Origin: Bacteroidales bacterium | GTDB taxonomy: Bacteria; Bacteroidota; Bacteroidia; Bacteroidales; UBA932 | DNA: 64,000 nucleotides | NCBI GenBank assembly: GCA_016288055.1 | Contig: JAEEXZ010000002.1 | Coordinates: forward strand, 20,967 to 84,966 | Reading direction: 5' to 3' | In this document: positions 31,169 through 54,763 of the stretch, in pieces | Layout of the letters: each line of letters opens with the position of its first letter | Numbering within the stretch: the first letter of the stretch is position 1 | The notes under the pieces: generated by a model | What the model was told of the DNA's origin: nothing | The model's database searches: none | The model's input: the letters and a program-made list of their open reading frames with translations, nothing else | Translations under genes and position numbers: made by a program

Positions 31169-32158
31169 ATGCAAGAAAACAAACTGACCAAAGAACAGCA
31201 GCAAAAATTCATGGCCTTCTTGAACGAGTATGAGAAGTGCCGGAACCTCTCTAAGGAAGAGAAAGAGAACCTAATTGTTCAGATCACATCCACCACGTAC
31301 ATTGACCTCCTCTGCGATTGGGCCTTCAAACATGTCTTCGGACACAACAAGGAAAACCTGATGCTACTCCTGAACGACTTCCTTCCGGAAGAGATCATTG
31401 ACATCGAGTACGATCCCAATGAGCGGGACATGCTCCGGGGTGATGACAAGCAGGTCATCATGGATGTCATCTGTCACACTAAGGACCGTAAGTTCATCGT
31501 GGAGATGCAGAAGTGCGGCAGCAACGAGTTCCGTAACCGCATGCTATACTACGGTGCAGCGTCGCTGGCCCGGCAGCTGAATCCGGGCGACAGCTATGAC
31601 AAGTTGGTTCCGGTGTACGTAATCTGCTTCATGAACTTCCGTCTGTTACATGACACAGACCAGTTGGTGTACCGTTTCCAGGTCCGTGAACAAGACTCCT
31701 GTGAACTCTATGGTCAGCAGCTATCCATCTACCTGTGCGAACTGCCCAGATGGGTCAAACCACTGGAGGAAGCGAAGACTCCGATTGAGGAATGGTTTGA
31801 CATTTTGCAGAATATGAGTAACTTTGCAGAGAAACCAGCCACCATCAGCAAACGTTACGATTCCATTTTCGATGCTTGTCAGCGTGGCCGGTTACAAGTC
31901 AAAGAACTGGAACAATACTTTCGCGCCATGATTACAGAACGAGAAGAAAAAGGCATCGCCGCCTTCTACAAGGAAGAAGGTCTCCGTGAAGGCTTCGACC
32001 TCGGTAAGGCCGATGGCTTGGCCGAAGGTAAAGCCGAAGGTAAGGCAGAAGGTAAGGCAGAAGTAGCCAGGGCATTGTTGAAAGATGGAATGACGGCAGA
32101 GAAGGTCATGGCTTATACTGGCTTGTCAAAAGAAGAGATTGAGCACTTGCGTCAATAA
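31169..32158 (+). CDS. Rpn family recombination-promoting nuclease/putative transposase (copy 1)
   Basis: A 329-residue Rpn-type PD-(D/E)XK nuclease. The core shows DWAFKHVFGHNKE, then VIMDV with Asp99 and FIVEMQ with Glu112/Gln114, the family's catalytic pattern. The C-terminal part is a coiled, charged segment with tetrapeptide repeats of the EGKA type, ending in a small helical domain (AYTGLSKEEIE). Rpn proteins are DNA endonucleases; in E. coli the long form is toxic and is inhibited by a short form translated from within the gene. It is near-identical to the inverted copy at 58345-59370 and is followed by a partial 3' duplicate. Confidence 0.88.
   Translation: MQENKLTKEQQQKFMAFLNEYEKCRNLSKEEKENLIVQITSTTYIDLLCDWAFKHVFGHNKENLMLLLNDFLPEEIIDIEYDPNERDMLRGDDKQVIMDVICHTKDRKFIVEMQKCGSNEFRNRMLYYGAASLARQLNPGDSYDKLVPVYVICFMNFRLLHDTDQLVYRFQVREQDSCELYGQQLSIYLCELPRWVKPLEEAKTPIEEWFDILQNMSNFAEKPATISKRYDSIFDACQRGRLQVKELEQYFRAMITEREEKGIAAFYKEEGLREGFDLGKADGLAEGKAEGKAEGKAEVARALLKDGMTAEKVMAYTGLSKEEIEHLRQ
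31928..32158 (+). CDS. Candidate internal Rpn-S reading frame within Rpn copy 1
   Basis: An in-frame internal ATG (31928) would give a 76-residue C-terminal protein starting MITEREEKGIAAFYKEE. It is proposed because the separate duplicate at 32169 begins at exactly this Met with the same upstream bases (CTTTCGCGCC). Translation from here is inferred by analogy with E. coli RpnS. Confidence 0.4.
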   Translation: MITEREEKGIAAFYKEEGLREGFDLGKADGLAEGKAEGKAEGKAEVARALLKDGMTAEKVMAYTGLSKEEIEHLRQ

Positions 32159-32168
32159 CTTTCGCGCC

Positions 32169-32375
32169 ATGATTACAGAACGAGAAGAAAAAGGCATCGC
32201 CGCCTTCTACAAGGAAGAAGGCCTCCGTGAAGGCTTCGACCTCGGTAAGGCCGACGGTTTGGCCGAAGGTAAAGCAGAAGTAGCCAGGGCATTGTTGAAA
32301 GATGGAATGACGGCAGAGAAGGTCATGGCTTATACTGGCTTGTCCAAGGAGGAGATTAACGGTCTGTCCCACTAG
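32169..32375 (+). CDS. Stand-alone Rpn C-terminal (RpnS-like) ORF, tandem duplicate
   Basis: This is a 68-residue ORF that repeats the last 76 residues of the Rpn gene directly upstream (offset 241 bp, minus 8 codons of the EGKA repeat). The copy begins right after the long gene's stop, keeps the bases in front of the Met, and has diverged at its own 3' end (EEINGLSH versus EEIEHLRQ) while keeping an open frame. That makes a working small gene more likely than debris. A terminator with the arms CTCCGT/ACGGAG follows at 32399. Confidence 0.6.
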   Translation: MITEREEKGIAAFYKEEGLREGFDLGKADGLAEGKAEVARALLKDGMTAEKVMAYTGLSKEEINGLSH

Positions 32376-33235: not shown

Positions 33236-35503
33236 TTAAGGTTCCTGGACGCAACGGATGGGGAAAGCACTTGCTGGATTATTCGTACTAAGAATACGAA
33301 CACCAGCCGAATCAAAACTCAAAATGAATTTAGTACCAGACGCCCATGTGTAACCATATGTTGTCACAAGGTTCAACGAGCCACTATCATTTCTGCGATG
33401 CCCCGATGCGAGATAAAAATCTGTAGGACCGCTTTTCCAATCCTGATAGTAGTATTCAAAACCTTTATTGAAAGTTGTTGAAACTACATTCCACTTATCC
33501 GACAAAGAAGCACCGTTAGCATTATCGTGTGTCTGAGTAAAGTTCACCCACAGGTCCTGAGGAGCAACCCTAAACCCTTCCGGAGAAGGATCGAAGATGG
33601 ATTTATATGTTTCTTCCATGAACGGGAATGAACGAGACTCTTTATTGTTGCCCCATAGATTAGAATCCAACTCGGTCCAACAGTTGTCGTATTTACCGTT
33701 ACACATGATATACATCCACGGCATAGTAACGGAATAATCAATCATAAAACGCCCTACTGGTTTTGTCCGACCGGCAGCATCCCACGCATTATAAAGCTGA
33801 CTTAAACTTGCATCTGCCGAACTGTTCGCAAACCAAATCTCACAATCTTTTAGGTTTCCACCAGCTATACCGTGACCAGCATCTCCAATATTCAAAGCAG
33901 TAGTTTGGTCGGGGCCATATACATTTCTGACATCACCGCCATTCGTATTAGTAATATTGGTCGGCCGCCCCAGAGGGTCTTTTCTTCCCCACTGGTAGTA
34001 GTTTCCTGCCGCTTCCGGATCGGCCGTACCGGCGCTCGCTTTCTTCAAAGCACCAATAGGCATAGTCATTACAATATAGGTACCGCTATTGGTTTGGGAG
34101 TATTCGTACATACCTTCAGTAGGATCTTCGTCCGGGCACCAGATGTGGTAACTCCACAGAAGCCGGTCCGAACTATCATAGATGCCCACCAGGGCATTGC
34201 CGCTTCCGCTGCCGCGCTTAATGGTAAGCGTAGACTTGCCGTTGCTGTCGGTGGAAATTGCATCCGCCGCACCGGCCGCACTGCCAGCCAGTTTGAGCTT
34301 ATAACCGTATGCGCTGCCGTTTACAGTGGAGGAAGCAATTACTTCGGCCCCCTCACTCCAGATAATCTTGGCATAAACGGCGGGCCGGGACGTCTGGACA
34401 TCCACCATGTTCTTTGTGTTATGCCAATAGCTGTCAGTTACATACTGCGTGACGTCCAGGGTGCCCGTCATGTTGGTCTGCGCGAGCAGCAGGCAGTTGG
34501 TGCCGCCGTAGTAGTAGAAAGGCTCCAGACCGGTGCGGTCGGTGCGGGTGTAGGCCAGGTCTGTCCCGTCCAGGGTGAAGTTCTTGTCCACCGTGATGGG
34601 GAAGGAAAGTTTGACGCCGCCCTCAAAGTTGCGGGTGGGCTTTCCGGTGAAGACAAACTCGTGGTCGGTGGTGGTAATGGTGACTTTCAGCGTGTTGCTA
34701 ATAGTCACCTCCGGGTACAGCACAAACTCGAACTTCTTCTCGGCGGTCATGGGAGCCGGCGTGGTGAGCGTCCAGTCAAGGGACGTCTGCGGCATGGAAA
34801 TGATTCCCAGGCTTGTACCGACCACCTTGGCACGGCCGGCGATGGCGGCACCTTCCAGGGTTGTCACCTGGATGCGCTCGATGCTTTCCATCGCGAGGGT
34901 CTCCGCAATGTCGGACTGGGTGAAATCCACCAGGAACTCACAGTAGGTTCCCAGCTGTTGAAACTTAAAATTAACTTTCCCGTTATTATCCACTTCGGCG
35001 CCGTCCGGGACGGCCACCTTGATGTCGTTGTTGGAGAAACTGAAGCGGGAGTCGCCAGACCAAGTGGTAACGCCCCTCTGTGTGAAGGTGCTGCTCAGGT
35101 CCTGGTTATTGATGTTTACATACAGCTCGCCGCCGGAGAGTTCCGCCGCGCAGGCCGGATAAACGGCCGTCAGGTCCTCGGGGGCGTTGTAGGACGCCGG
35201 ACTCTGGCCGGCAGCCGGAAGGAAGCGGCCGATAGAAGTGCCGCCGCCGAATACGAGCCGATAGTAATGCAGGACGCCGTCGGTGCCCTTCACGGCAATT
35301 TGGTCGTCGGCGCTCCATTTCACCACGCCATTCGCCTGGACGGAGGTCTTTGTATCAAGGTCCTCGCCGGTGTAGGCAGTGATTTCGGTAAGCAGGTACT
35401 TACCCTGGACGCCGTTCTCGGGAGGGGCTATTTCTTCCCGGTTACACGAAGCCAGGCCGATGGCCGTCATGGCTGTCAGTGCAATGAATATAATTTTTTT
35501 CAT
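33236..35503 (-). CDS. Fimbrillin-like lipoprotein with C-terminal FISUMP-type domain (755 aa)
   Basis: The signal is MKKIIFIALTAMTAIGLASC (lipobox Cys20). Residues about 30-320 resemble fimbrillin (Mfa-like) N-terminal and beta-sandwich regions (YLLTEITAYTGEDLDTKTS, then DQIAVKGTDG). From about 330 the protein carries a large domain with YYQWGRKDPLGRPTN, FDPSPEGFRVAPQDLW and a final AFPIRCVQ, the pattern of the Fibrobacter succinogenes major paralogous (FISUMP) domain, which is C-type-lectin-like. I infer a fimbrial tip or accessory adhesin. It is paralogous to the 764-aa neighbour; their last 90 residues differ most. Confidence 0.8.
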   Translation of the reverse strand: MKKIIFIALTAMTAIGLASCNREEIAPPENGVQGKYLLTEITAYTGEDLDTKTSVQANGVVKWSADDQIAVKGTDGVLHYYRLVFGGGTSIGRFLPAAGQSPASYNAPEDLTAVYPACAAELSGGELYVNINNQDLSSTFTQRGVTTWSGDSRFSFSNNDIKVAVPDGAEVDNNGKVNFKFQQLGTYCEFLVDFTQSDIAETLAMESIERIQVTTLEGAAIAGRAKVVGTSLGIISMPQTSLDWTLTTPAPMTAEKKFEFVLYPEVTISNTLKVTITTTDHEFVFTGKPTRNFEGGVKLSFPITVDKNFTLDGTDLAYTRTDRTGLEPFYYYGGTNCLLLAQTNMTGTLDVTQYVTDSYWHNTKNMVDVQTSRPAVYAKIIWSEGAEVIASSTVNGSAYGYKLKLAGSAAGAADAISTDSNGKSTLTIKRGSGSGNALVGIYDSSDRLLWSYHIWCPDEDPTEGMYEYSQTNSGTYIVMTMPIGALKKASAGTADPEAAGNYYQWGRKDPLGRPTNITNTNGGDVRNVYGPDQTTALNIGDAGHGIAGGNLKDCEIWFANSSADASLSQLYNAWDAAGRTKPVGRFMIDYSVTMPWMYIMCNGKYDNCWTELDSNLWGNNKESRSFPFMEETYKSIFDPSPEGFRVAPQDLWVNFTQTHDNANGASLSDKWNVVSTTFNKGFEYYYQDWKSGPTDFYLASGHRRNDSGSLNLVTTYGYTWASGTKFILSFDSAGVRILSTNNPASAFPIRCVQEP

Positions 35504-35530
35504 AGTTTTAATGATTCATGTGTTAAACTG

Positions 35531-36547
35531 TTACCAGCCGAATCCGGCATTGGTATAGGCGCCGTCCTCTACGACGGGCTCGTAATCCCAGCCGTTGCCG
35601 CCGTCGATGTAGTAGGCATCGGGGGTGTCGCCGTTAACAACGGAGACGAGGAACTCGCGCTCCAGGCTGTAGCGAACCCCGGGCAGGAAGCGGGCGGGAG
35701 AGAGCTTGTTGGCCATGGTGTACTTGGTGCCGTTCTCGTCCACTACATAGAAGGAGAGGACGGAGTTGCCGGTGACGGCCGGCAGCAGGATGGCCGTGAA
35801 GAAGGGATTCTCTGTTGCGTCCTTGGTAATGCGTACGGCATTGGTAAGGGTAACCGTGACGGTGGAAGAACCGCCGGCGGCAGAGAGAGATCCGTTAGAG
35901 AGGGTAAGTTCGCAGGCGCCCACAATGGGACGGTTGTCCGCGATCTTGATGGTAAGCTGCTTGATGTAGATGGCATCCACGGCCGACGTACTCTTGAGCA
36001 CGGGCTTCACGCGGAGCATGGAGGTTACCGGGCCGAACTCGAAGTTCACCGGTTCGTAGCCCTCCGTAAGCGCCGCCGCAGTGAGGTCCGTGGAGGCGTA
36101 GCAGATCTGATACCTGCCGAACTCGCCGCTCTGGGCACTCGGAAGGTTCAGGGCCACCTTGCCGCCGACGCACGAGGACTCCGGGGCAAACATCTGGGGA
36201 TAGTAGGCGCAGAACGTAAGGTCTGCGGCACTCCCCGCCCAGGCGGAACGGCCCTCCGACGAGGCGAACACGGCGTCATTCCCCGTGCGCCAGGTGATGG
36301 GGGCGAACCCGCTGTGGACAAGGGCCGACGTATTGGCGTCGAAACTATAGACGCCCAGATTGTCGTACGAACTCCACACCAGGGTGCCATCATCCTCGTC
36401 GGAGAAGGTTGCCTTGGTGCTCACGGTTGAGCCCGTGAACGTCAAAGGCTCTTCATCCGCCCGGGGGCTCACAGCCCCGCCTTTTGCGCAGCCCGCAATG
36501 ACGGACAGCGACAGCAGCAGAATGATATATGATTGAATCTTTTTCAT
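35531..36547 (-). CDS. Fimbrillin family lipoprotein (338 aa, copy a)
   Basis: Lipoprotein signal ending VIAGC, then an Mfa-like_1/fimbrillin-type protein (TFTGSTVSTKATFSDEDD at the N-terminus, LTIKIADNRPIVGACELTLS in the second sandwich). It has a near-identical twin at 38877-39893; the proteins differ only in the signal peptide. It ends YTNAGFGW. Probably an assembled or accessory fimbrial subunit on the cell surface. Confidence 0.8.
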   Translation of the reverse strand: MKKIQSYIILLLSLSVIAGCAKGGAVSPRADEEPLTFTGSTVSTKATFSDEDDGTLVWSSYDNLGVYSFDANTSALVHSGFAPITWRTGNDAVFASSEGRSAWAGSAADLTFCAYYPQMFAPESSCVGGKVALNLPSAQSGEFGRYQICYASTDLTAAALTEGYEPVNFEFGPVTSMLRVKPVLKSTSAVDAIYIKQLTIKIADNRPIVGACELTLSNGSLSAAGGSSTVTVTLTNAVRITKDATENPFFTAILLPAVTGNSVLSFYVVDENGTKYTMANKLSPARFLPGVRYSLEREFLVSVVNGDTPDAYYIDGGNGWDYEPVVEDGAYTNAGFGW

Positions 36548-36549
36548 GA

Positions 36550-38844
36550 TTAATGTTCTTTGACGCAGCGGACAGAGAAGCAGCTGGCACGACGCCCACC
36601 TGCATTATACGGATGAACAACGGTAGCAACAAAATATAGCATTGAGCCAGCATTGTTCTGATTTGCCGGTGAAGAAGTCCATACGGCTAAATTATCAGAC
36701 ACATTCGACAGAAAGGAGTACGCCCTTGATCGTTGACCTTGCGCCAGATAAAAATCCGTCGGGCCAGTCTTCCATCCCTGATAGTAAAATGCCCATCCAT
36801 TCGCATTATTGGGATTTACATAGTCACCAGTGGCGACATTAAACTGTTCTATTATTGAAGAATTCTGTCGTGTTGATGTAAAGCCCGCGAACAAATCTTG
36901 GGGTGCAACACGGAATCCTTCAGGGGAAGGATCAAAGATGGATTTATATATTTCCTCCATAATGGGGAATTTATTTGACCCACCTCCGTTTCCCCACAAA
37001 TTGTCATCAAGCGGGAGCCAACTATGAGAATATGCTAAATCGTCACAGAAAATACACATCCAAGGTTTAGCAATAGTATAATCAAGTATAAAGCGTCCAA
37101 GTGTTTTTGATTTATCAGAACCCTCCCACGCAAGTTTAAGAGTGTTTTTTTCAGAACTGCCGTTGGAATTCGAAAACCATATCCAACAATCCAACAAATT
37201 GCTCGCAGACACAGAATAGTCTGGATCGCCAAGGTTCAATGTGGAGATTTGATCAGAACCATATAAATTCAGAACACCTCCTCCGTTTAAAGAGTTAAAA
37301 TTCTTCGGCCTTCCCATAGGGTCTTTTCTACCCCACTGGTAATAGAACCCCGCAGCCGTTTCCGGATTAGACATACCGGGATAGGCCTTCTTGATGGCGC
37401 CAATGGGCATGGTCATTACGGTATAATTGCCGCTATTGGTTTGGGTGTATTCATACATGCCATCCGTGGGATCGTCCTCCGGGCACCAGATATGGTAACT
37501 CCACAGAAGCTTATCAGAGGCGTCGTAGATGCCCACCAGGGCATTGCCGGCGGCGGAGCCGCGTTTGATGGCGAGGAAGGATTTCCCGCTGCTGTCGGTG
37601 GAGATGGCGTCCGTTGCGCCAGCGGCGCTGTCGGCCATCTTCAGTTTATAGTCGTAGGCACTGCCATTGACGGTGGCGGAGGCGATGACATCGGCCCCCT
37701 CGCTCCAGATAATCCTGGCATAGGAGGCGGGGCGGGGATTCTGGACATCGGCGGTGTTCTTGGTGTTGTGCCAGAAACTGTCGGTCACGTACTGGGTGAC
37801 ATCCAGATAGCCAATCTCGTTGGGAGTGCGCAGGAGCAGGCAGTTGGTGCCGCCGTAATAGTAGAACTGGTCCACATCTGTCCGGAGCGTGGAAGTATAG
37901 GCCAGCAGCGTACCGCCCTGGGTGAAGTTTTTATCCACCGTTACAGGGAAAGTCAATCTTCTGCCCGCCTCGAAATCCTGCGTGGGTTTTCCGGTGAAAA
38001 CGAACTCATGGTCCGTGGTAGTAAGGGTAATCTTCAGGGTGGTGTTGGTGGTCACCCCGGGATAGAACACGAACATGGGCTGGATGAGCGCGGACATGGG
38101 TCTGGGCGTTGCGACGGTCCAGTCAATGTTGGTCACGGGATTGGTGATGGGGCCCAGCGTTGTGCCCGTCAGTTTGGCGCGGCCGCCCAGGGCAACGCCA
38201 TTGAGCGTGGATATCTGAATCCTTTCCACGCTCTCCATCATGAGGCTGCGGGCTTGGTCGGCCTGGGTAAAGTCGATAATAAAGCTACAGCAGGTTCCCA
38301 GCTGCTTGAATTTGAAGTTAGGAAGCCCGTCCTCCAGCTTGACGCTGCCGGGGACAGCCACTTTGATGTCATTATTGGTAAAGGTGAACGGAGAATCAGC
38401 GTTCCAGGAAGACAGTCCCCTTTCCGAGAAAGAGCCGCTCAAATCCTGGTTGTTGATATTCACATACAGTTCTCCATCCGTCAGTTCCGCGGCGCAGGCC
38501 GGGTAGATGGCGGTGAGGTCTGCCGGCGTGTTGTAGGAGGCAGGTGTCTGGCCGGGAGCCGGAAAGAATTTTCCGACCGGGGTACCGCCGCCAACCTTGA
38601 GTTTGTAATAGTGGAGCGCACCGTCGGTTCCCTTGACCGCAATCTGGTCGTCGGCGTTCCATACAACCACGCTGTTGGACTGTATGTTCGTCTTTGTATC
38701 ATCATCTCCCGTGGAAGCTGTAATCTCGGTAAGCAGGTACTTACCCTGTACACCTTCCCTGGGAGGATCTATTTCTTGTCTGTTGCACGACGCCAGGCCA
38801 AGGGCCGTTATGGCTGTCAGTGCCAGGAGTAAAAACTTTTTCAT
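36550..38844 (-). CDS. Fimbrillin-like lipoprotein with C-terminal FISUMP-type domain (764 aa)
   Basis: Paralogue of the 755-aa protein with the same plan: signal MKKFLLLALTAITALGLASC, fimbrillin-like N-terminal half (YLLTEITASTGDDDTKTN), then the FISUMP-type domain with YYQWGRKDPMGRPKN, FDPSPEGFRVAPQDLF and a terminal CFSVRCVKEH. The N-terminal halves are very similar and the final ~100 residues are not, which points to a binding surface there. It forms a tandem unit with the 338-aa gene upstream. Confidence 0.8.
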   Translation of the reverse strand: MKKFLLLALTAITALGLASCNRQEIDPPREGVQGKYLLTEITASTGDDDTKTNIQSNSVVVWNADDQIAVKGTDGALHYYKLKVGGGTPVGKFFPAPGQTPASYNTPADLTAIYPACAAELTDGELYVNINNQDLSGSFSERGLSSWNADSPFTFTNNDIKVAVPGSVKLEDGLPNFKFKQLGTCCSFIIDFTQADQARSLMMESVERIQISTLNGVALGGRAKLTGTTLGPITNPVTNIDWTVATPRPMSALIQPMFVFYPGVTTNTTLKITLTTTDHEFVFTGKPTQDFEAGRRLTFPVTVDKNFTQGGTLLAYTSTLRTDVDQFYYYGGTNCLLLRTPNEIGYLDVTQYVTDSFWHNTKNTADVQNPRPASYARIIWSEGADVIASATVNGSAYDYKLKMADSAAGATDAISTDSSGKSFLAIKRGSAAGNALVGIYDASDKLLWSYHIWCPEDDPTDGMYEYTQTNSGNYTVMTMPIGAIKKAYPGMSNPETAAGFYYQWGRKDPMGRPKNFNSLNGGGVLNLYGSDQISTLNLGDPDYSVSASNLLDCWIWFSNSNGSSEKNTLKLAWEGSDKSKTLGRFILDYTIAKPWMCIFCDDLAYSHSWLPLDDNLWGNGGGSNKFPIMEEIYKSIFDPSPEGFRVAPQDLFAGFTSTRQNSSIIEQFNVATGDYVNPNNANGWAFYYQGWKTGPTDFYLAQGQRSRAYSFLSNVSDNLAVWTSSPANQNNAGSMLYFVATVVHPYNAGGRRASCFSVRCVKEH

Positions 38845-38876
38845 AGTCTAAATGATTTTTGTGTTTCAAATGGGGT

Positions 38877-39893
38877 TTACCAGCCGAATCCGGCATTGGT
38901 ATAGGCGCCGTCCTCTACGACGGGCTCGTAATCCCAGCCGTTGCCGCCGTCGATGTAGTAGGCATCGGGGGTGTCGCCGTTAACAACGGAGACGAGGAAC
39001 TCGCGCTCCAGGCTGTAGCGAACCCCGGGCAGGAAGCGGGCGGGAGAGAGCTTGTTGGCCATGGTGTACTTGGTGCCGTTCTCGTCCACTACATAGAAGG
39101 AGAGGACGGAGTTGCCGGTGACGGCCGGCAGCAGGATGGCCGTGAAGAAGGGATTCTCTGTTGCGTCCTTGGTAATGCGTACGGCATTGGTAAGGGTAAC
39201 CGTGACGGTGGAAGAACCGCCGGCGGCAGAGAGAGATCCGTTAGAGAGGGTAAGTTCGCAGGCGCCCACAATGGGACGGTTGTCCGCGATCTTGATGGTA
39301 AGCTGCTTGATGTAGATGGCATCCACGGCCGACGTACTCTTGAGCACGGGCTTCACGCGGAGCATGGAGGTTACCGGGCCGAACTCGAAGTTCACCGGTT
39401 CGTAGCCCTCCGTAAGCGCCGCCGCAGTGAGGTCCGTGGAGGCGTAGCAGATCTGATACCTGCCGAACTCGCCGCTCTGGGCACTCGGAAGGTTCAGGGC
39501 CACCTTGCCGCCGACGCACGAGGACTCCGGGGCAAACATCTGGGGATAGTAGGCGCAGAACGTAAGGTCTGCGGCACTCCCCGCCCAGGCGGAACGGCCC
39601 TCCGACGAGGCGAACACGGCGTCATTCCCCGTGCGCCAGGTGATGGGGGCGAACCCGCTGTGGACAAGGGCCGACGTATTGGCGTCGAAACTATAGACGC
39701 CCAGATTGTCGTACGAACTCCACACCAGGGTGCCATCATCCTCGTCGGAGAAGGTTGCCTTGGTGCTCACGGTGGAGCCCGTGAACGTCAAAGGCTCTTC
39801 ATCCGCCCGGGGGCTCACAGCCCCGCCTTTCGCGCAGCCCGCGACAATCGCGGACAGCGACAGCAGCAGAATGATGCTTAGTTTGTTTTTCAT
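38877..39893 (-). CDS. Fimbrillin family lipoprotein (338 aa, copy b)
   Basis: Almost identical to copy a at 35531-36547. The DNA is the same over roughly 900 bp (offset 3346) until near the signal-peptide region, where one base change and then a short rearrangement appear. Lipobox VAGC. The copy supports recent tandem duplication or gene conversion of the 338-aa gene. Confidence 0.82.
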   Translation of the reverse strand: MKNKLSIILLLSLSAIVAGCAKGGAVSPRADEEPLTFTGSTVSTKATFSDEDDGTLVWSSYDNLGVYSFDANTSALVHSGFAPITWRTGNDAVFASSEGRSAWAGSAADLTFCAYYPQMFAPESSCVGGKVALNLPSAQSGEFGRYQICYASTDLTAAALTEGYEPVNFEFGPVTSMLRVKPVLKSTSAVDAIYIKQLTIKIADNRPIVGACELTLSNGSLSAAGGSSTVTVTLTNAVRITKDATENPFFTAILLPAVTGNSVLSFYVVDENGTKYTMANKLSPARFLPGVRYSLEREFLVSVVNGDTPDAYYIDGGNGWDYEPVVEDGAYTNAGFGW

Positions 39894-45709: not shown

Positions 45710-46633
45710 ATGACAAAGCCTTTGGCACCTGGCGGGAAAGGGAGGTATGCATTCCTGCTGTTTGACTCCACGATGAAAGTCGTCATTTTCAACCCCGAGA
45801 ACGAGAGACTCCTGATTCAGATCCTCGAGCTGCTCATTCCGGGGAAGCACATTGCCGGTATCACATTCATGGACAAAGAGAAACACGGTTTGGTGATTTC
45901 CGAAAAAGTGGCTACCTTTGACATGTTGTGTAAAGATGCAGATACCGGCGAAGAGTTCCTGGTAGAAGTGCAGAATGCGCCGCAGAACAACTTCCAAGAC
46001 CGTGTTCTGTCGTATTCCACCTACCCTATTAGGGAACAAATGGCACGAAGGATCAGCCGCATCCGCGACGGAGAGAAGTTGGACCGGATGGACTACACTT
46101 TAAGGCCGATATACGTCCTGAGCCTTGTGAACTTCGCGCTGGAGCATGAATCGGCCGAAGCCCTGGAGGAGAACTACATCTCCCGCTATGAGCTGAGAAA
46201 CCGCCACAACGCGGAGCTCATGACCCGGAGCCTGAACTTCGTGTTCGTGGAGATGGGCCGAATGAAACTGGGCCCCGAAGACGGTGACAAGTGCAACACT
46301 TTGCTGGAAAAATTCATCTTTTCACTGAAGCACATGCATGAGCTGGACAAGTGCCCGGACAACTTCAAGGAGGACCTGCTGAAAGACCTCTACCGCGCCA
46401 CGGAACTGGCCACCATGCCCATAGAGACAAGAGAATATTACGACCAGAATATGAGAACCGAATTAGACATCATCGCCCAGAAAGACTATGCCGTCAAACA
46501 AGGCCGCGCCGAAGGCGAAGCTAAGGGGCGGGCTGAAGTTGCCAAGGCCATGCTGAAGAACGGTTTGTCCGTAGACATGGTCATGTCGTGTACTGGTCTG
46601 TCGAAGAAAGAAGTTGAGCATCTTGCCCAATAA
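45710..46633 (+). CDS. Rpn family nuclease/putative transposase, divergent subfamily (copy 2)
   Basis: A 307-residue PD-(D/E)XK protein of a different Rpn subfamily from the copies at 31 and 58 kb. Catalytic-type residues are Asp71 (KVATFDML) and Glu86/Gln88 (FLVEVQ). The C-terminal end has the charged run GRAEGEAKGRAEVAKAML and the small domain MSCTGLSKKEVEHL. It uses the same leader and terminator as copy 1 and also has a duplicated 3' end directly after it. Confidence 0.85.
   Translation: MTKPLAPGGKGRYAFLLFDSTMKVVIFNPENERLLIQILELLIPGKHIAGITFMDKEKHGLVISEKVATFDMLCKDADTGEEFLVEVQNAPQNNFQDRVLSYSTYPIREQMARRISRIRDGEKLDRMDYTLRPIYVLSLVNFALEHESAEALEENYISRYELRNRHNAELMTRSLNFVFVEMGRMKLGPEDGDKCNTLLEKFIFSLKHMHELDKCPDNFKEDLLKDLYRATELATMPIETREYYDQNMRTELDIIAQKDYAVKQGRAEGEAKGRAEVAKAMLKNGLSVDMVMSCTGLSKKEVEHLAQ
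46415..46633 (+). CDS. Candidate internal Rpn-S reading frame within Rpn copy 2
   Basis: The internal ATG at 46415 would give 72 residues beginning MPIETREYYDQNMRTELDII. The stand-alone duplicate at 46643 begins at the equivalent Met. Internal initiation is inferred. Confidence 0.4.
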   Translation: MPIETREYYDQNMRTELDIIAQKDYAVKQGRAEGEAKGRAEVAKAMLKNGLSVDMVMSCTGLSKKEVEHLAQ

Positions 46634-47781: not shown

Positions 47782-48879
47782 ATGAAAAACGGACTCCGAA
47801 ATGGTCCCCTTTGGGGATCATTGGCCGTTGTCCTCATGGTTTCGGGAGCTTGTACGAGAGAAGGGGCATCGGCCCTTAATGGCGAAGCCTTTATCTTGCC
47901 CGGAATCATGGTCGAGTCTCCGTACACGGAGCCGGACGACGCTACAAAATCTGTAGCCGGAGAGGTTCAGTACAGGCTGTATTGGAATGCTGGCGACAAG
48001 ATTGCCATCGTGAACATATCACAGGGCAATCGGATCGACACCTATACCTCTACCGCGCGCACGAACGAAAACGACGGCCTGGCCAGCTTCAAGGCCGATG
48101 CCCAGTACTCTTACAACCCGAACGACCTGGTATTTGCCGCATATCCGGTAGATGCCATCGAGAATATTGCAACCAGCGTGGCTCCCTACAAGATTACGAT
48201 GAGCCTGGCGGACAATACTTCCTATTACATCAAGTCAAACAGCCCCATGTTCTCGCGGAACGACATTCAGGTCTCTCCGCTGATGAATGCAAGCCAGTTG
48301 CATGGTTCCGGAAACAATCTTCCCAGCATCAAGCCCAGCCGCATGACGGGCATGCTCCGCGTTTTGAGCCACATCTCCAACGAGACGCTCAGCCAGGAGC
48401 AGGTATCGGCCCTCACCGTTGCGGTGAAGGGCGTCGCAGGGCAGGCCGATATCGTCTTCTCGGGGACATCGGCCGGCGCGAAGCCGTCCCTGGCCGTGAA
48501 CATGGGCTCGGAGGACCAGATCACCGTGCTTCTGCCCAACAGGCCGAAGATGGCGTCTGCCGCCGCCATTGTTGAGTTCATCCCTGTGTTCCCCATCTGG
48601 ATGGGCCGGGACAATACCCGCGACGGGATTAGCTTTATCTTCACGACGGACCTGTACAAGGCGGCTTTCCACCGCGAAGCCAGCAGTAATGTCCGTTCCA
48701 ATAACGTCACTGCATTCAATATATTTGAAGGGTCCTACACACGGATTGGCTCGGAGGATGCTTTCTCTGCCGACAACCAGTGGTGGTACACCCTCAAAGC
48801 CGGCGGCATGAACAGCCCCGGCAACTTTGACTCCCCCGGCCCGAATATAGGCAGCAGCGCGGGAGGATTTGTTGACTAA
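47782..48879 (+). CDS. Fimbrillin family lipoprotein (365 aa)
   Basis: Lipoprotein signal (LWGSLAVVLMVSGAC). Fimbrillin-like body with SPYTEPDDATKSVAGEVQYR, NAGDKIAIVNISQGNR and FAAYPVDAIENIATS, and later KAAFHREASSNVRSNNVTAF. It is the counterpart of the 359-aa protein at 39914. It is followed after 23 bp by the 1020-aa protein, as the 359-aa gene neighbours the FISUMP genes in the other operon. Confidence 0.78.
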   Translation: MKNGLRNGPLWGSLAVVLMVSGACTREGASALNGEAFILPGIMVESPYTEPDDATKSVAGEVQYRLYWNAGDKIAIVNISQGNRIDTYTSTARTNENDGLASFKADAQYSYNPNDLVFAAYPVDAIENIATSVAPYKITMSLADNTSYYIKSNSPMFSRNDIQVSPLMNASQLHGSGNNLPSIKPSRMTGMLRVLSHISNETLSQEQVSALTVAVKGVAGQADIVFSGTSAGAKPSLAVNMGSEDQITVLLPNRPKMASAAAIVEFIPVFPIWMGRDNTRDGISFIFTTDLYKAAFHREASSNVRSNNVTAFNIFEGSYTRIGSEDAFSADNQWWYTLKAGGMNSPGNFDSPGPNIGSSAGGFVD

Positions 48880-48902: not shown

Positions 48903-51900
48903 ATGAAAAACGAATATCTGATTCCGGCATTAGTGCTTTTGATTCTGGCCGGATGTTATAAGGAGCAGGAACCGATACAGGAGGGCTCCATTCCCCGGAA
49001 GGGGACATTCAACTTCTCCAGTTCCACTGGAGAGGTGACCAAAGTGTTGCTGAACTCCGACAATACCCTTTTCTGGGCTAGCGGAGACAAGATTGCCGTG
49101 TATGATTACAAGGCAGGATCCGTATATGCGAAGGATATCGCCGTCCTTACGGGCGGTGAAAGTACGGCTGTGGGTACCTTTACCCCTGCCGTCAAGACAA
49201 CCAATACAGATTGGTATAACGCAGCGGACGCCTCTGACCAGGTGTATAATTTCTATGCATTCTACCCTGGCGGCACAGAAGCCGTGAATCCTACCGATGG
49301 CAAAGTGACCGTGAGTGTTGCTGCCTCCCAGCAGGAATCCGTCGGCATTGGCAAGTACATTGTTAGCTGGGCCAGTGCCAATACCACCAAGCAGAACCTT
49401 GCTGGTGGCTCGGCGCCCAACTTCGCATTCGCTCCCAAGAGCGCATTGCTCAAGCTTACTCTGCAAAACAGTGCTGACATCCCGGTGAAGATTACCTCCA
49501 TCCAGATTAGCGCCGCATCCGTGAATATTGCGGGTGATGCTAACCTGAATCTGGGTACCGGTGTCTTGTCTGCAGGTAGCGGAAAGGTAATTACCTACAT
49601 ACCCAGTAAGCCCATCGAAATTGCTGCCGGTGCAGTTGCTTCTGCACCAGTGTACATTTCATTACTGCCTGGCGCTCCCGATTCCTTGACCGTGACTCTC
49701 AACCAAGCTGGTTTCAAATACAATTCCCCTAGCATTGCTCTGGCGACCATTGAGTCGGGTCATGTGTATTCCAAAGAGGCTGCAATCAGCAGCGTGAGCC
49801 GTGAGCTGGCCATCTCTAATGATAACACAACTAACTTGGCAGATGCCGCCGCAATGGACTCTGATCCGAATCTCTACTATGGCACGTCAAACTGCGTGGT
49901 TATGGATGCTAGCGATATCCAGGGTATCATTGCTATTGGTCTTTACAGTTCCGATGATGGTTACACACGCAACAACTCTTCCGCAGGAAAGGATACTGCG
50001 GTCAAGAAGGCCAAGGTGATTTGGGCGGAGAAAGGTCTTTACGAAGATCCGAACTTCTGCATTGCTTCCGGTACAACGAACATGCTTGTCGTGACCAAGT
50101 CTGCTGGTGTCACTGGCAATGCTTTGATTGGTATCTACGATGGTAACGATGGACTCCTGTGGAGTTATCATGTCTGGTGCCCGTTTGATAAGTCTGTCAT
50201 GAGTGTCACTACAGAAAAGACGTCTACGAAGTATACTGCCTTCAAACTTGCCCTGGGCCAGATTACCGGTGCAGACAGTGATACTTATATGTACTATCAG
50301 TGGGGACGAAAGGACCCGTTGGGACGTGCAAATCCTGGCTTTATTGGGAAGAGCCTCTTGACGGTATATGGCGATGTGCCCACTACTTGGGCTACTGAGA
50401 ATGGCCGCACAAGAACAGGTGTGACGGCAAATAACATTGCATATGCACGTAAAAATCCGACCGTTTTCATTACAGATAATAATTCGACACCTTATGACTG
50501 GTACCCTGGATCTGATGCGACTCAGAACAACAACCTTTGGGTGACGACAAAGGCGACCATTTTTGACCCCTGTCCTCCGGGTTACCGTGTCGCGCCTAAG
50601 ACTCTTTGGGATGGCACCAAGGACAAGGAGGCTAGTCCTTTGTTTGAGTCCGCAGGGCTTTGGTATGTCCTTGGTGGCGGCCGTGATCGCTCGGATGGCA
50701 GCGTCAGCAGTGTGGCGTCCGGCGGCCACTACTGGTCCTCCGAGGTTTCGGGTTCGTCGGTGGGCGCGTACTACTTGTACTTCAATTCGGGCACGCGCTC
50801 GCTCCGAGAGAACATCTACCACCGCGCGAGCGGCTACGGGGTGCGCTGCGTCAAAGAAGACGACAGCAGCATCAAGCGCGAAATAGCCATCTCCAACAGC
50901 AACAGTGGTGAAAACCTGGCCAACTCCGCTGCGCTTGACGCCGCCTATGCCGACGACGAGACCGATGCCTCGTCCCTCTACTACGGTGCAGCCAACTGCG
51001 TGGTTATGGGCGCCAGCGACACCCGCGCGCTCATCGACATCAGGCTCAAGAAGTCTACCGACGGCTACTCCCGCAGCGGCGCCGACCCTTCCCCCAAGGT
51101 GACCGCCGTCAAGAAGGCCAAGGTCATTTGGGCCGAAGCAGACCTCTACCGTGATTCCAATTTCGGTATTGCCGCCGGAACTGTTAGTCAGCTGGTTATC
51201 CAAAAGTCTGCCGGTACCACCGGTAACGCCCTCGTGGGTATCTACGACGAGTCCGACCAGCTCCTGTGGAGCTACCACATCTGGTGCCCCGTGGACCGTA
51301 GCGTAGTGTCCGCCACTTCCGAGGATGCTTCTCCCTTCACCTACCAGGCTTACAAACTGGCCCTTGGTCAGATCCTGGGCGCCGACTGCGACACCTACAT
51401 GTACTACCAGTGGGGCCGAAAGGATCCTCTGGGTCGAGCGGAGAGCTCCTTTACGGGCGGTGGTAGCCTTGCCGCCACGTACGGTGTTGCTTTCTCAAAC
51501 AAAGGCCATTCTTCGACTGGTGAAACTGTTCATAATCTTGGCTACGCTCGAAAGAATCCTACCGTATTCATTTCGGACGGTAACACCACGCCTTACGATT
51601 GGTATAATCCAATGGATAAAACAAATCAGAACGACAACTTGTGGAAGTCCGATATAGCAACCATTTTCGATCCTTGCCCGCAGGGCTACCATGTTGCTCC
51701 CAAGAAACTCTGGGCTGGCAATGCCGCCAAGGTCGCAGGTCCTCTGTTTGAGTCCGCAGGGCTTTGGTATGTCCTTAGTGGCTACCGTGTTCGCACGAGT
51801 GGCAACGTCTACGATGTGGCGTCCAACGGCTACTACTGGTCCTCCGAGGCTGTTGGTGGGGCTTCTCAGTACTCCTACCACCTGAACTTCAGTTCCGGCG

Positions 51901-51965
51901 CTGGCCTGAACCGAGCGCGCAACGACTACCGCGCGAGCGGTTTCGGGGTGCGCTGCGTCAAGTGA
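48903..51965 (+). CDS. Large fimbrial lipoprotein with two FISUMP-type (C-type-lectin-like) domains, probable variable adhesin
   Basis: The signal is MKNEYLIPALVLLILAGC (lipobox Cys18). Residues about 30-300 are a fimbrillin-like part (SGDKIAVYDYKAGSVYAKD, then FYAFYPGGTEAVNP). Two FISUMP-type domains follow, about 300-655 and 660-1020, each with YYQWGRKDPLGRA, YARKNPTVFI, then IFDPCPPGYRVAPKTLW or its variant, and each ending in GVRCVK. The last 70 codons of each domain form matching segments that differ in a way typical of adenine-directed mutagenesis (see the variable-region entries). The 755- and 764-aa proteins have one such domain each. I infer a surface-exposed tip adhesin whose ligand-binding face is diversified. 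Confidence 0.82.
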   Translation: MKNEYLIPALVLLILAGCYKEQEPIQEGSIPRKGTFNFSSSTGEVTKVLLNSDNTLFWASGDKIAVYDYKAGSVYAKDIAVLTGGESTAVGTFTPAVKTTNTDWYNAADASDQVYNFYAFYPGGTEAVNPTDGKVTVSVAASQQESVGIGKYIVSWASANTTKQNLAGGSAPNFAFAPKSALLKLTLQNSADIPVKITSIQISAASVNIAGDANLNLGTGVLSAGSGKVITYIPSKPIEIAAGAVASAPVYISLLPGAPDSLTVTLNQAGFKYNSPSIALATIESGHVYSKEAAISSVSRELAISNDNTTNLADAAAMDSDPNLYYGTSNCVVMDASDIQGIIAIGLYSSDDGYTRNNSSAGKDTAVKKAKVIWAEKGLYEDPNFCIASGTTNMLVVTKSAGVTGNALIGIYDGNDGLLWSYHVWCPFDKSVMSVTTEKTSTKYTAFKLALGQITGADSDTYMYYQWGRKDPLGRANPGFIGKSLLTVYGDVPTTWATENGRTRTGVTANNIAYARKNPTVFITDNNSTPYDWYPGSDATQNNNLWVTTKATIFDPCPPGYRVAPKTLWDGTKDKEASPLFESAGLWYVLGGGRDRSDGSVSSVASGGHYWSSEVSGSSVGAYYLYFNSGTRSLRENIYHRASGYGVRCVKEDDSSIKREIAISNSNSGENLANSAALDAAYADDETDASSLYYGAANCVVMGASDTRALIDIRLKKSTDGYSRSGADPSPKVTAVKKAKVIWAEADLYRDSNFGIAAGTVSQLVIQKSAGTTGNALVGIYDESDQLLWSYHIWCPVDRSVVSATSEDASPFTYQAYKLALGQILGADCDTYMYYQWGRKDPLGRAESSFTGGGSLAATYGVAFSNKGHSSTGETVHNLGYARKNPTVFISDGNTTPYDWYNPMDKTNQNDNLWKSDIATIFDPCPQGYHVAPKKLWAGNAAKVAGPLFESAGLWYVLSGYRVRTSGNVYDVASNGYYWSSEAVGGASQYSYHLNFSSGAGLNRARNDYRASGFGVRCVK
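50643..50852 (+). other. Candidate DGR variable region 1 (internal)
   Basis: Seventy codons from TTTGAGTCCGCAGGGC to TGCGTC. Over the first 34 codons the only differences from variable region 2 (15 bases) are in codon positions 1 and 2 (for example GGC/TAC, GAT/AGT, AGC/TAC, GGC/AAC), each explicable by an A in a template. It ends with CGCGCGAGCGG and GGGGTGCGCTGCGTC, conserved in both copies. Confidence 0.65.
51747..51959 (+). other. Candidate DGR variable region 2 (3' end of gene)
   Basis: Seventy-one codons at the extreme 3' end, where DGR targets normally lie. No third-position change from region 1 in the first 34 codons, although the 27 codons just upstream differ at many third positions. 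A GC-rich constant end (GCGCGAGCGG, TTTCGGGGTGCGCTGCGT) could be the initiation-of-homing sequence. The region is one codon longer than region 1, with less clear alignment in its second half. Confidence 0.68.
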
Positions 51966-51972
51966 TTTTACC

Positions 51973-52011
51973 GACCCGCCCCCTCTTTTCATAAGAGGGA
52001 GGAGGCGGGTC
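51973..52011 (+). other. Stem-loop directly after the 3' variable region
   Basis: GACCCGCCCCCTCTT pairs with AAGAGGG and, after a 4-nt bulge, GGCGGGTC, with a 5-nt loop. It begins 8 bp after the stop codon and is not followed by a T-run, so it is unlike a terminator. In studied DGRs a hairpin just 3' of the homing sequence aids target recognition. Confidence 0.6.
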
Positions 52012-52103: not shown

Positions 52104-52190
52104 GGTGATAGCAAATTCGGTGGTCCACGGCTATCCACTGTTGGCTCTTCCGGCATAAACGCCTTCGGGGTGCGCTGCGTGAAAGAATAA
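52104..52190 (+). pseudogene. Remnant of a FISUMP-domain gene 3' end
   Basis: A 28-codon open frame after an in-frame TAG, ending NAFGVRCVKE and a stop. The last part (TTCGGGGTGCGCTGCGT) is the same as the end of variable region 2. It looks like the tail of a lost third paralogue or target. Confidence 0.55.
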
Positions 52191-52202
52191 GAAACATTGA
52201 TT

Positions 52203-52829
52203 ATGTCCATATCCCCTCGGCTGTTACTATTGTTTGCCACGCTTGTTGCGAGCGTGGCAGGCAATAGCGCGGGGGCAGCGAAACCACAAAAGGAGCCGCC
52301 CGTCGCAGTTGCCGCGCGTACCAATGTGCTGGCTGTGCCGTTTCTGAATCTGGGGGCGGAAGTGTCCCTGGGCCGTCACTGGTCCATCGGCGCGGACCTG
52401 TACTATCCCTGGCTGCGGCGTGTGAAGGGTTCCGAGGGGATGGATTACAGCGGGAAATGTGTGCAGATTATGGCCGGCGGGCTGGAGCCGCGTTATTGGT
52501 TCGGCGGGAGCGGGCGGCTTGTGGGGTTTGGTATCGGCCTGCTTGCCATGGGCGGTTACTACGACCTGGAATGGGACTACCACGGTTATCAGGGAGAGTT
52601 TGTGAGTGGCGGGCTTGACTTTGTTTATGCCTGCCCTGTCTTTAAGGACAGGCTGCGGCTGGAGTTCTCTCTCGCGCTGGGCTATCTGTATTCCCGGGCC
52701 AGGGAGTACCAGACATACTGGGCTGGAGGCCAGGCTTTTACCGAAAAAGGAATGGCCAAGGATATTCATTTCGTGGGCCCGGTGAAGGCCGGAGTCTCTC
52801 TTGTGCTTCCAATCCGCATCAAGAAATGA
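52203..52829 (+). CDS. DUF3575 outer-membrane protein (plus operon)
   Basis: A 208-residue homologue of the protein at 44277: VAARTNVLAVPFLNLGAEV, HWSIGADLYYPWLRRVKG and KDIHFVGPVKAGVSLVLPI. The signal peptide is hydrophobic (LLLLFATLVASVAG). The ATG at 52203 is preferred to the TTG at 52197. It overlaps the DUF5119 gene by 4 bp, as in the minus operon. Confidence 0.82.
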   Translation: MSISPRLLLLFATLVASVAGNSAGAAKPQKEPPVAVAARTNVLAVPFLNLGAEVSLGRHWSIGADLYYPWLRRVKGSEGMDYSGKCVQIMAGGLEPRYWFGGSGRLVGFGIGLLAMGGYYDLEWDYHGYQGEFVSGGLDFVYACPVFKDRLRLEFSLALGYLYSRAREYQTYWAGGQAFTEKGMAKDIHFVGPVKAGVSLVLPIRIKK

Positions 52830-53746
52830 AAGTATTATTACATGGGGCGCTGTCCCTTCTCTGTCTTCTGTCATGTGAACGTATGCCGCTCTACGTGAGG
52901 GAACCGTATGTGAAACTGACTCTGGAATTGAACCTGGAAGAGGGCAAGATTCCCGAGCCGGAGCACATGAAGGCGTGTTTCTTCGCTCCGGACGGCGGCG
53001 GGCTTTATAATACCCAATTTGTGGGTAGCGACGGCGGTAATTTGTCCGTTGCTTCAGGTAGCTATACCCTGCTGGTGTATTCCTTCGGCACGGAGTACAT
53101 TCAAATCCGCGGAGAGAGTTCCCTGGAAACCATAGAGGCCTTCACCTCGGACATTACCGTTTCAAAGCACACGGCCTTCCGAAGGCTTACAGGAACAAAG
53201 GCAGGAGAGGACGCCCCCATTTTTTATGCGCCGGACTATTTGCTGGTGGCCATGACCACGGTCGAAGTGCCGGAGTTCACCGGCGAGAATACGCTTGCCG
53301 AGGTTGCTCTGGAGCCCTCGTCCGTCGTGCAGACTTACTCTTTTGAAGTGACTAACGTGCACGGGGTTGACTATGTAGAGAGCGCAGAGGCGTATGTGAC
53401 CAACCAGGCGCGTTCGTACTTCATCGGCCGCATGCAGCCTTCCACTGAACCGGCGACGCTGTGGTTTCCCATAGAGGTGGACAAGGAGAAGGCCGTCTTG
53501 AATGCTTCATTCAATACATTCGGTGTGCTTCCGGGCGGCAGCGAGACTTACATCCATTTTGTGGTGCGCAGTTCCGGCGGCCAGGAGGTTACTTTCTCCA
53601 AAGATATTTCCGAGCAACTGGCTGCGCCGGAGCACAGGATTACAGTAGATGACGAGATTACTATCCCCAAGCCGTCGGGGCCCAGCGGTTTCTCTCCCGA
53701 AGTGGATCCCTGGGAGGAGGAAATACGCGACGTTCCCATCGGCTGA
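52826..53746 (+). CDS. DUF5119 fimbrial lipoprotein (plus operon)
   Basis: A 306-residue homologue of the protein at 43348. Lipobox in LLCLLSC; shared blocks SGSYTLLVYSFGTEYIQIRG, SSLETIEAFTSDITVSK and VESAEAYVTNQARSYFIGR. Likely an anchor or assembly component of the fimbria made by this operon (inference). Confidence 0.8.
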   Translation: MKVLLHGALSLLCLLSCERMPLYVREPYVKLTLELNLEEGKIPEPEHMKACFFAPDGGGLYNTQFVGSDGGNLSVASGSYTLLVYSFGTEYIQIRGESSLETIEAFTSDITVSKHTAFRRLTGTKAGEDAPIFYAPDYLLVAMTTVEVPEFTGENTLAEVALEPSSVVQTYSFEVTNVHGVDYVESAEAYVTNQARSYFIGRMQPSTEPATLWFPIEVDKEKAVLNASFNTFGVLPGGSETYIHFVVRSSGGQEVTFSKDISEQLAAPEHRITVDDEITIPKPSGPSGFSPEVDPWEEEIRDVPIG

Positions 53747-53791
53747 TTCCATATGAACCATTATTCAATCATTTTTTACACAACTAAAGCT

Positions 53792-54763
53792 ATGAAAAAA
53801 ATCCTTTTGACTCTTTTCGTCACAATGCTTCCCCTTGTAAGCTGCGTGAAATCCCGCGACGTTTATGTCGGCTCCTCCGACGCGCGTCAGATTTCCTTTT
53901 CCCCGCTGGCGCAGCCGGTGACAAAGGCCGCTGTAGAGGGGACCACATTCCCCAATCAGGCCATGTACGTAGCCGCATACGATGCGACCGCCGGGGCCAA
54001 TTACTTCGACGCGACTGCTTTCTCGCAGGACGGAAGTACCGGCAGCTGGAAATCTACTCCCGCAACGTTCTGGCCCCTGAACACAGCCACGCTTAACTTC
54101 CTGGCCTATAGCGGTGTGTCTTCCGGTGCCACCTGGAATTCCACCAATCCTGCCAGCGGTGTAGAGATTGTGCTGGCCAACAATGCCACCAATCAGTATG
54201 ACCTGATGTATGCCTGCGGCCGTCAGTCCAGGACCAGCGGATCGGCCGCAACCAGTATTGCCTTGCCTTTCAAGCATGCCATGGCACTCATCAAGTTTAC
54301 GGCATGCACTGCCGCCAATTATGGAAATCGCATGAAGATCACCAGCATCGTGCTCACCGGAGCTCACTACGCGGGCACCTACCGCGTCACTCATACCGGC
54401 TGGAATTCAGCCACCGATGCACAAAGTGTCGCCGGTACATGGGATTCCGTCGGTTCGGAGGCCAATGTGTCCATAACGCCTTCCTGGGAGAATGAGAATG
54501 CCGTGACAACCACCGCCCAGCAGGTCGGAGCCGGCATCCTGGTCGTTCCCGACGACGACGACACCAAGGACGACTACACCGGTTTTACCATCAATTATAC
54601 CATCGATGGCCATGGCTACAGTTATAATTACGCCCCGGCGGACCTTGATGTGCACCAGGCCAAGAAGTACATCTTCGCCATCAGCATGACGCTGAACGAG
54701 ATTGTCATTGTTCCTTCCGTCGTGGATTACGCAGAAGAAGGCAACAACGGCGTTACCATCTAA
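53792..54763 (+). CDS. Fimbrillin family lipoprotein, probable major subunit (plus operon)
   Basis: The start at 53792 gives the signal MKKILLTLFVTMLPLVSC (lipobox Cys18). It is homologous to the 327-aa protein at 42319: ARQISFSPLAQPVTKAAVEG, FWPLNTATLNFLAYSG, ALPFKHAMALIKFTACTAAN and GHGYSYNYAPADLDVHQAK. In the minus operon the next gene follows at once; here a 1.2-kb insertion separates them. Confidence 0.82.
   Translation: MKKILLTLFVTMLPLVSCVKSRDVYVGSSDARQISFSPLAQPVTKAAVEGTTFPNQAMYVAAYDATAGANYFDATAFSQDGSTGSWKSTPATFWPLNTATLNFLAYSGVSSGATWNSTNPASGVEIVLANNATNQYDLMYACGRQSRTSGSAATSIALPFKHAMALIKFTACTAANYGNRMKITSIVLTGAHYAGTYRVTHTGWNSATDAQSVAGTWDSVGSEANVSITPSWENENAVTTTAQQVGAGILVVPDDDDTKDDYTGFTINYTIDGHGYSYNYAPADLDVHQAKKYIFAISMTLNEIVIVPSVVDYAEEGNNGVTI

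Follow-up and report, generated by a model that had tools for sequence, protein, structure and literature searches.

The analysed window of 64,000 nucleotides (which takes up the final 64 kb of a contig of 85 kb, from a Bacteroidales genome bin of 2.05 Mb and 90 contigs, 87.5% complete) contains a fimbrial locus in which a lipoprotein gene with two variable-region-like tails, referred to below as the target gene, is directly followed by genes for DUF3575, DUF5119 and Mfa_like_1 proteins. The following features were located, all on the + strand:

47782–48879, +: upstream lipoprotein gene, 365 aa, without Pfam match, pilin-like by position only
48903–51965, +: target gene, one ORF for a 1020-aa lipoprotein with two homologous FISUMP-like domains and a lipobox-like start, MKNEYLIPALVLLILAGC
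50643–50855, +: VR1, internal variable-region-like tail of domain 1, recognised by its codon profile and AAY-column coincidence, without a hairpin downstream
51747–51962, +: VR2, C-terminal variable region of domain 2, recognised by its codon profile and 17/17 NNY codons at template-AAY columns
51973–52011, +: GC-rich hairpin shortly beyond VR2 and the target-gene stop codon; folding energy -15.9 kcal/mol (as DNA), z -5.08
52110–52190, +: relic of another FISUMP tail end (terminating in STVGSSGINAFGVRCVKE and a stop codon; GVRCVKE stop) in the intergenic gap after the target gene, recognised as repeat family D5 and by translation
52197–52829, +: DUF3575 protein of the fimbrial locus, Pfam E=1.3e-20
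52826–53746, +: DUF5119 protein of the fimbrial locus, Pfam E=6.6e-27
53753–54763, +: fimbrillin-like protein (Mfa_like_1), Pfam E=7.1e-21

The two domains of the target protein (residues about 300–654 and 659–1020) were 62% identical to each other, and each closed with a tail of about 71 residues giving sub-cut-off Pfam matches to Lcl_C (PF07603, formerly DUF1566; E=3e-4) or Fib_succ_major (E=0.006). The first 499 residues had no Pfam match, and the N-terminus was judged lipobox-like by eye. A C-type lectin fold was not confirmed for the tail, whose structure model (pLDDT 72) had no PDB match, and sequence searches found no solved relative; the viral library returned only FISUMP phage proteins (E=1.2e-3). 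As expected of a type V tip pilin, the protein is a lipoprotein with an extra C-terminal domain encoded in a fimbrillin locus, and it is best explained as a putative tip-pilin-like adhesin of this type.

A further fimbrillin cluster was present at 33–44 kb of the window. Within it (33236–39893, −), a pair of fimbrillin and FISUMP lipoprotein genes was duplicated in tandem: the fimbrillin copies (35531–36547 and 38877–39893) differed at 28 of 1014 bases, and the FISUMP proteins (755 and 764 aa) were alike save for their last ~70 codons, which were nearly unrelated. A PD-(D/E)XK nuclease-family transposase gene (45710–46633, +; PDDEXK_2, E=9.5e-33) was located ~1.1 kb 5' of the gene preceding the target.

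DGRs are bacterial systems that rewrite binding sites at template adenines, and the first-pass annotation had proposed two DGR-like variable regions in the target gene. The ORF and the codon alignment placed both tails in the same gene, and a recount reproduced the 15 base differences claimed for their first 34 codons, which fell in 10 codons and exclusively at codon positions 1 and 2 (positions 1/2/3 = 8/7/0). The 277 homologous codons upstream of the tails showed a distribution of 81/66/171 (third-position deficit in the tails, Fisher p=1.4e-5). The tract boundary was sharp: 30 identical bases (50643–50672 = 51747–51776) came right after heavy divergence, with 19 third-position differences in the 34 codons just before the tract, more than the about ten in 27 codons that had been noted initially. 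The statement that every changed site fits a template A proved weakly worded, any differing base pair fitting it; what stood was that one of the copies keeps A at 13 of the 15 differing tail sites, compared with 147 of 318 upstream. The second half of the tails was less clean, as first described: the loop of 8 codons contained a one-codon indel and 5 third-position differences, and the last 29 codons another 4; these non-A-like differences were counted against a DGR origin. GC3 reached 0.68–0.88 in the tails against 0.38–0.59 (VR1) and 0.41–0.56 (VR2) just before them, a rise that is suggestive only, because high GC also marks the start of domain 2. Two VR-like tails per gene were also found in one gene each of the congeners G244 and G200, where the tails retained third-position differences, and a clean tract is therefore not a general property of two-domain genes.

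An A-tolerant scan of congener loci for repeats recovered canonical cassettes with TR/VR pairs of 83–195 nt, 6–29 mismatches at template A and 0–6 elsewhere, and an RT in the locus. The RTs shared a GxPIGxLxSQ-like consensus, a DGR hallmark, and strong matches to the DGR-RT profile were obtained in about 25 of 250 congeners. Two of the congener targets (L044 and L052) were located in fimbrillin loci, had Fib_succ_major tails and, like the target gene, fimbrillin-type neighbours.

The alignment columns that are mostly AAY in ten congener templates coincided with the variable columns of the window tails: 16 of the 18 varied between VR1 and VR2, compared with 10 of the remaining 42 (p=5.7e-6). 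Taken alone, this leaves selection possible, because FISUMP tails in general may contact their ligand at such columns. As to third bases, all 36 codons at the AAY columns ended in C or T (64 of 107 elsewhere in the tails, p=3e-7), the chance of which was 0.004 given the codon usage of the target gene itself. In a second alignment this C/T (NNY) index was 17/17 for VR2 and 14/17 for VR1, the loop of which was hard to align. Among eight VRs with a known template the index was 17/17 in seven and 15/17 in one, while tails looking unrelated to DGRs (L084, L085, L086, L088, L106) scored 9–12 of 16–17; some unclassified tails (L087, L092, L110) reached 16/17, so that the index is not perfectly specific. 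The residues at the AAY columns were mainly Tyr, Asn, Ser, Gly, Asp and His, consistent with Tyr, Ser and Asp as the outcomes measured for AAC in a reconstituted DGR (PMC12875486).

A template was then reconstructed by writing A at the sites differing between VR1 and VR2, and searched in 400 congeners. It matched 14 other genomes, in 11 of which the match was a template or an RT-adjacent repeat: nine matches fell within a template for which a VR partner had been called (G013, G050, G053, G064, G208, G347, G396, G400, G404), one in an Asn-rich repeat adjoining an RT (G325) and one in a candidate template adjoining an RT (G257). No DGR RT was found in the other three (G038, G076, G453). The search was mildly circular because A had been written in, although the template positions were not given to it.

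The hairpin started ~10 bases 3' of VR2, the 3' end of which, GGGGTGCGCTGCGTCAA, is likely a GC-rich initiation site. Similar hairpins were present within 15–60 nt after most template-paired VRs of the genus; the hairpin after VR2 is supportive only, because several other window genes are also followed by hairpins. In Bordetella phage BPP-1 such a hairpin is required for efficient homing (PMC3240598). The target gene resembles mtd of this phage in having a VR at the gene 3' end, a GC-rich 3' boundary and a downstream hairpin; it differs in the longer hairpin with a 5-nt loop, CATAA, in place of a GRNA tetraloop, in its chromosomal location and in having no cassette nearby. The AAY coincidence, the C/T third bases, the retrieval of real templates and the hairpin agreed in supporting the proposed DGR-like mutagenesis, and VR2, judged from its sequence, belongs to the DGR variable-region class. 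Of the two regions first proposed, only the terminal VR2 looked clean; that both tails are equal targets was unsupported, VR1 being internal, without a hairpin downstream, and looking older. The relic at 52110–52190 is perhaps left over from a second target gene, or from a cassette, that was deleted.

Neither an RT nor a template repeat was found within the window, in agreement with the first-pass annotation. The genome search which it had proposed was run on the 87.5%-complete bin and again returned neither: no DGR RT was detected there by Pfam or by the genus DGR-RT profile, which does find congener RTs, and DNA searches with the VRs and the reconstructed template recovered only the two window copies. 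The sole A-biased repeat flagged in the window (32027–32357) was rejected as a TR/VR pair: it is a coding repeat rich in Lys/Glu/Ala/Gly-type codons, and no RT lies nearby. Viral contigs searched with three VR/TR patterns gave no match, and the phage and plasmid collections contained only remote FISUMP-like proteins (<30% identity).

Action of a DGR in trans was evident in the congener G244, in which one template on contig C22 served at least eight VRs over five contigs (C22, C7, C27, C43, C51; loci L149–L152, L161, L197, L200 and L203–L207), including two VRs in one gene (L150). The VR on C27 had 30 changes at template A and 0 elsewhere. Together these loci form a DGR network that acts in trans on pilin-like proteins. 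Another congener, G164 (95% complete), contained four VRs (L193, L196, L199, L202), which differ from the G244 template at 22–31 of its A sites and at 6–10 other sites; L193 and L196 had near-identical hairpins 15 nt downstream. No RT or A-rich template was found in this assembly. VR sets without RT and template recur in the genus, in this bin and in G164, which may reflect either assembly loss or true loss. The trans action which the first-pass annotation had assumed is thereby documented for G244, while for the incomplete bin studied here, in which neither part was found, it is plausible, because G244 has a trans DGR and G164 has four VRs and no RT.

We consider it quite probable that VR2 is a DGR variable region, whose RT and template act in trans or were recently lost, and that VR1 derives from the same template lineage. 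The RT would reverse-transcribe an A-rich template repeat, introducing errors at adenines, and the altered cDNA would replace VR2 starting from the GC-rich 3' end beside the hairpin. Template Asn (AAY) codons would in this way become varied NNY codons, presumably at a binding surface of the pilin, and the codon choice elsewhere in the tail would be reset to that of the template. The template would be expected to resemble TTTGAGTCCGCAGGGCTTTGGTATGTCCTTAGTGGCAACCGTAATCGC in sequence. If the system is currently active in this strain, RT and template would operate from a locus absent from the bin; alternatively, they may have been lost recently. VR1 may have arisen, and been updated, either through direct homing from time to time or through recombination with an earlier VR2.

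Gene conversion between the domains, followed by strong diversifying selection at ligand-binding positions, might have produced the tails without any DGR: two-domain genes recombine easily, variability at columns that may be ligand contacts is nonspecific, and an RT was not found in the bin. This explanation was considered and judged unlikely, with little probability left to it, since it requires 102 bases to have acquired 15 nonsynonymous changes and 0 synonymous ones and fails to predict the A at 13 of 15 sites, the all-C/T AAY columns and the retrieval of RT-linked templates; moreover, the tandem FISUMP paralogues of the same window lack such a pattern. A DGR that is already gone, leaving both tails orphaned and rewriting ended, is unlikely too, but to a lesser extent. 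It would account for the RT and template missing from the bin, for the four VRs of the 95%-complete G164 and for the tail relic just 3' of the target gene, but the 0 synonymous differences over 34 codons argue for recent rewriting or conversion; besides, the bin lacks 12.5% of the genome, and repeats are frequently lost in assembly or binning.

The origin of VR1 divides the preferred explanation itself. In one sub-case, to which we give somewhat less than an even chance, only VR2 is a DGR target and VR1 an archive of an earlier VR2, transferred by homologous recombination between the domains. The internal position of VR1 and its missing hairpin agree with this, as do its C/T index of 14/17 against 17/17 of VR2 in one of the alignments and the internal VR-like copy of L150 in G244, in which 20 changes at template A and 19 others were counted, far from the 30/0 of the proven trans VR. 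Recombination, as a partial conversion, also fits VR1 better than one full-length cDNA copy, because the 5' half of the tract is clean and the loop divergent. On the other hand, in the other alignment VR1 had C or T as the third base in every one of its 18 AAY-column codons, and BPP-1 retained low homing with a disrupted hairpin (PMC3240598), hence direct homing is possible. Overall, VR1 may be an archived older output. A broader scenario, which we regard as rather improbable, is that species of the genus keep DGR-formatted tip-pilin VRs without an RT and template of their own, re-diversified only on arrival of a cassette or in carrier strains, with past outputs stored in the internal VRs and recombining with the active terminal VR.

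Several elements of this picture have precedents. DGR targets among type V tip pilins of Bacteroides are reported in PMC12632263, which cites Macadangdang et al. (2024); compared with what is described there, the present gene has two variable domains and its bin no cassette. The DGR of Treponema denticola uses one template for several lipoprotein targets scattered over the genome (PMC4891356); here the phylum and the protein family are different, the template was not found, and it is in the congener G244 alone that trans action was shown. A single ORF held several VRs in 31 of 271 multi-VR DGRs, with DUF1566 (now Lcl_C) as the commonest target domain (PMC6642488); RT and TR are present in those systems, while in the window each VR ends its own FISUMP domain, 1.1 kb apart. 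Tip pilins of Bacteroidales as DGR targets, targets remote from the cassette and genes with several VRs are already published, and the parts worth following are the paired-domain arrangement and the RT-less state.

Surveys seeking VRs beside an RT miss remote targets (PMC8144416). The locus suggests that such targets may be recognised without RT or template, by codon-position statistics combined with the NNY index at template-AAY columns. The locus further draws attention to a genus of Bacteroidales in which one cassette diversifies many pilins in trans, and in which RT-less assemblies contain VR sets. If VR1 is indeed an archive, the products of a DGR could be stored and reshuffled within a single adhesin.
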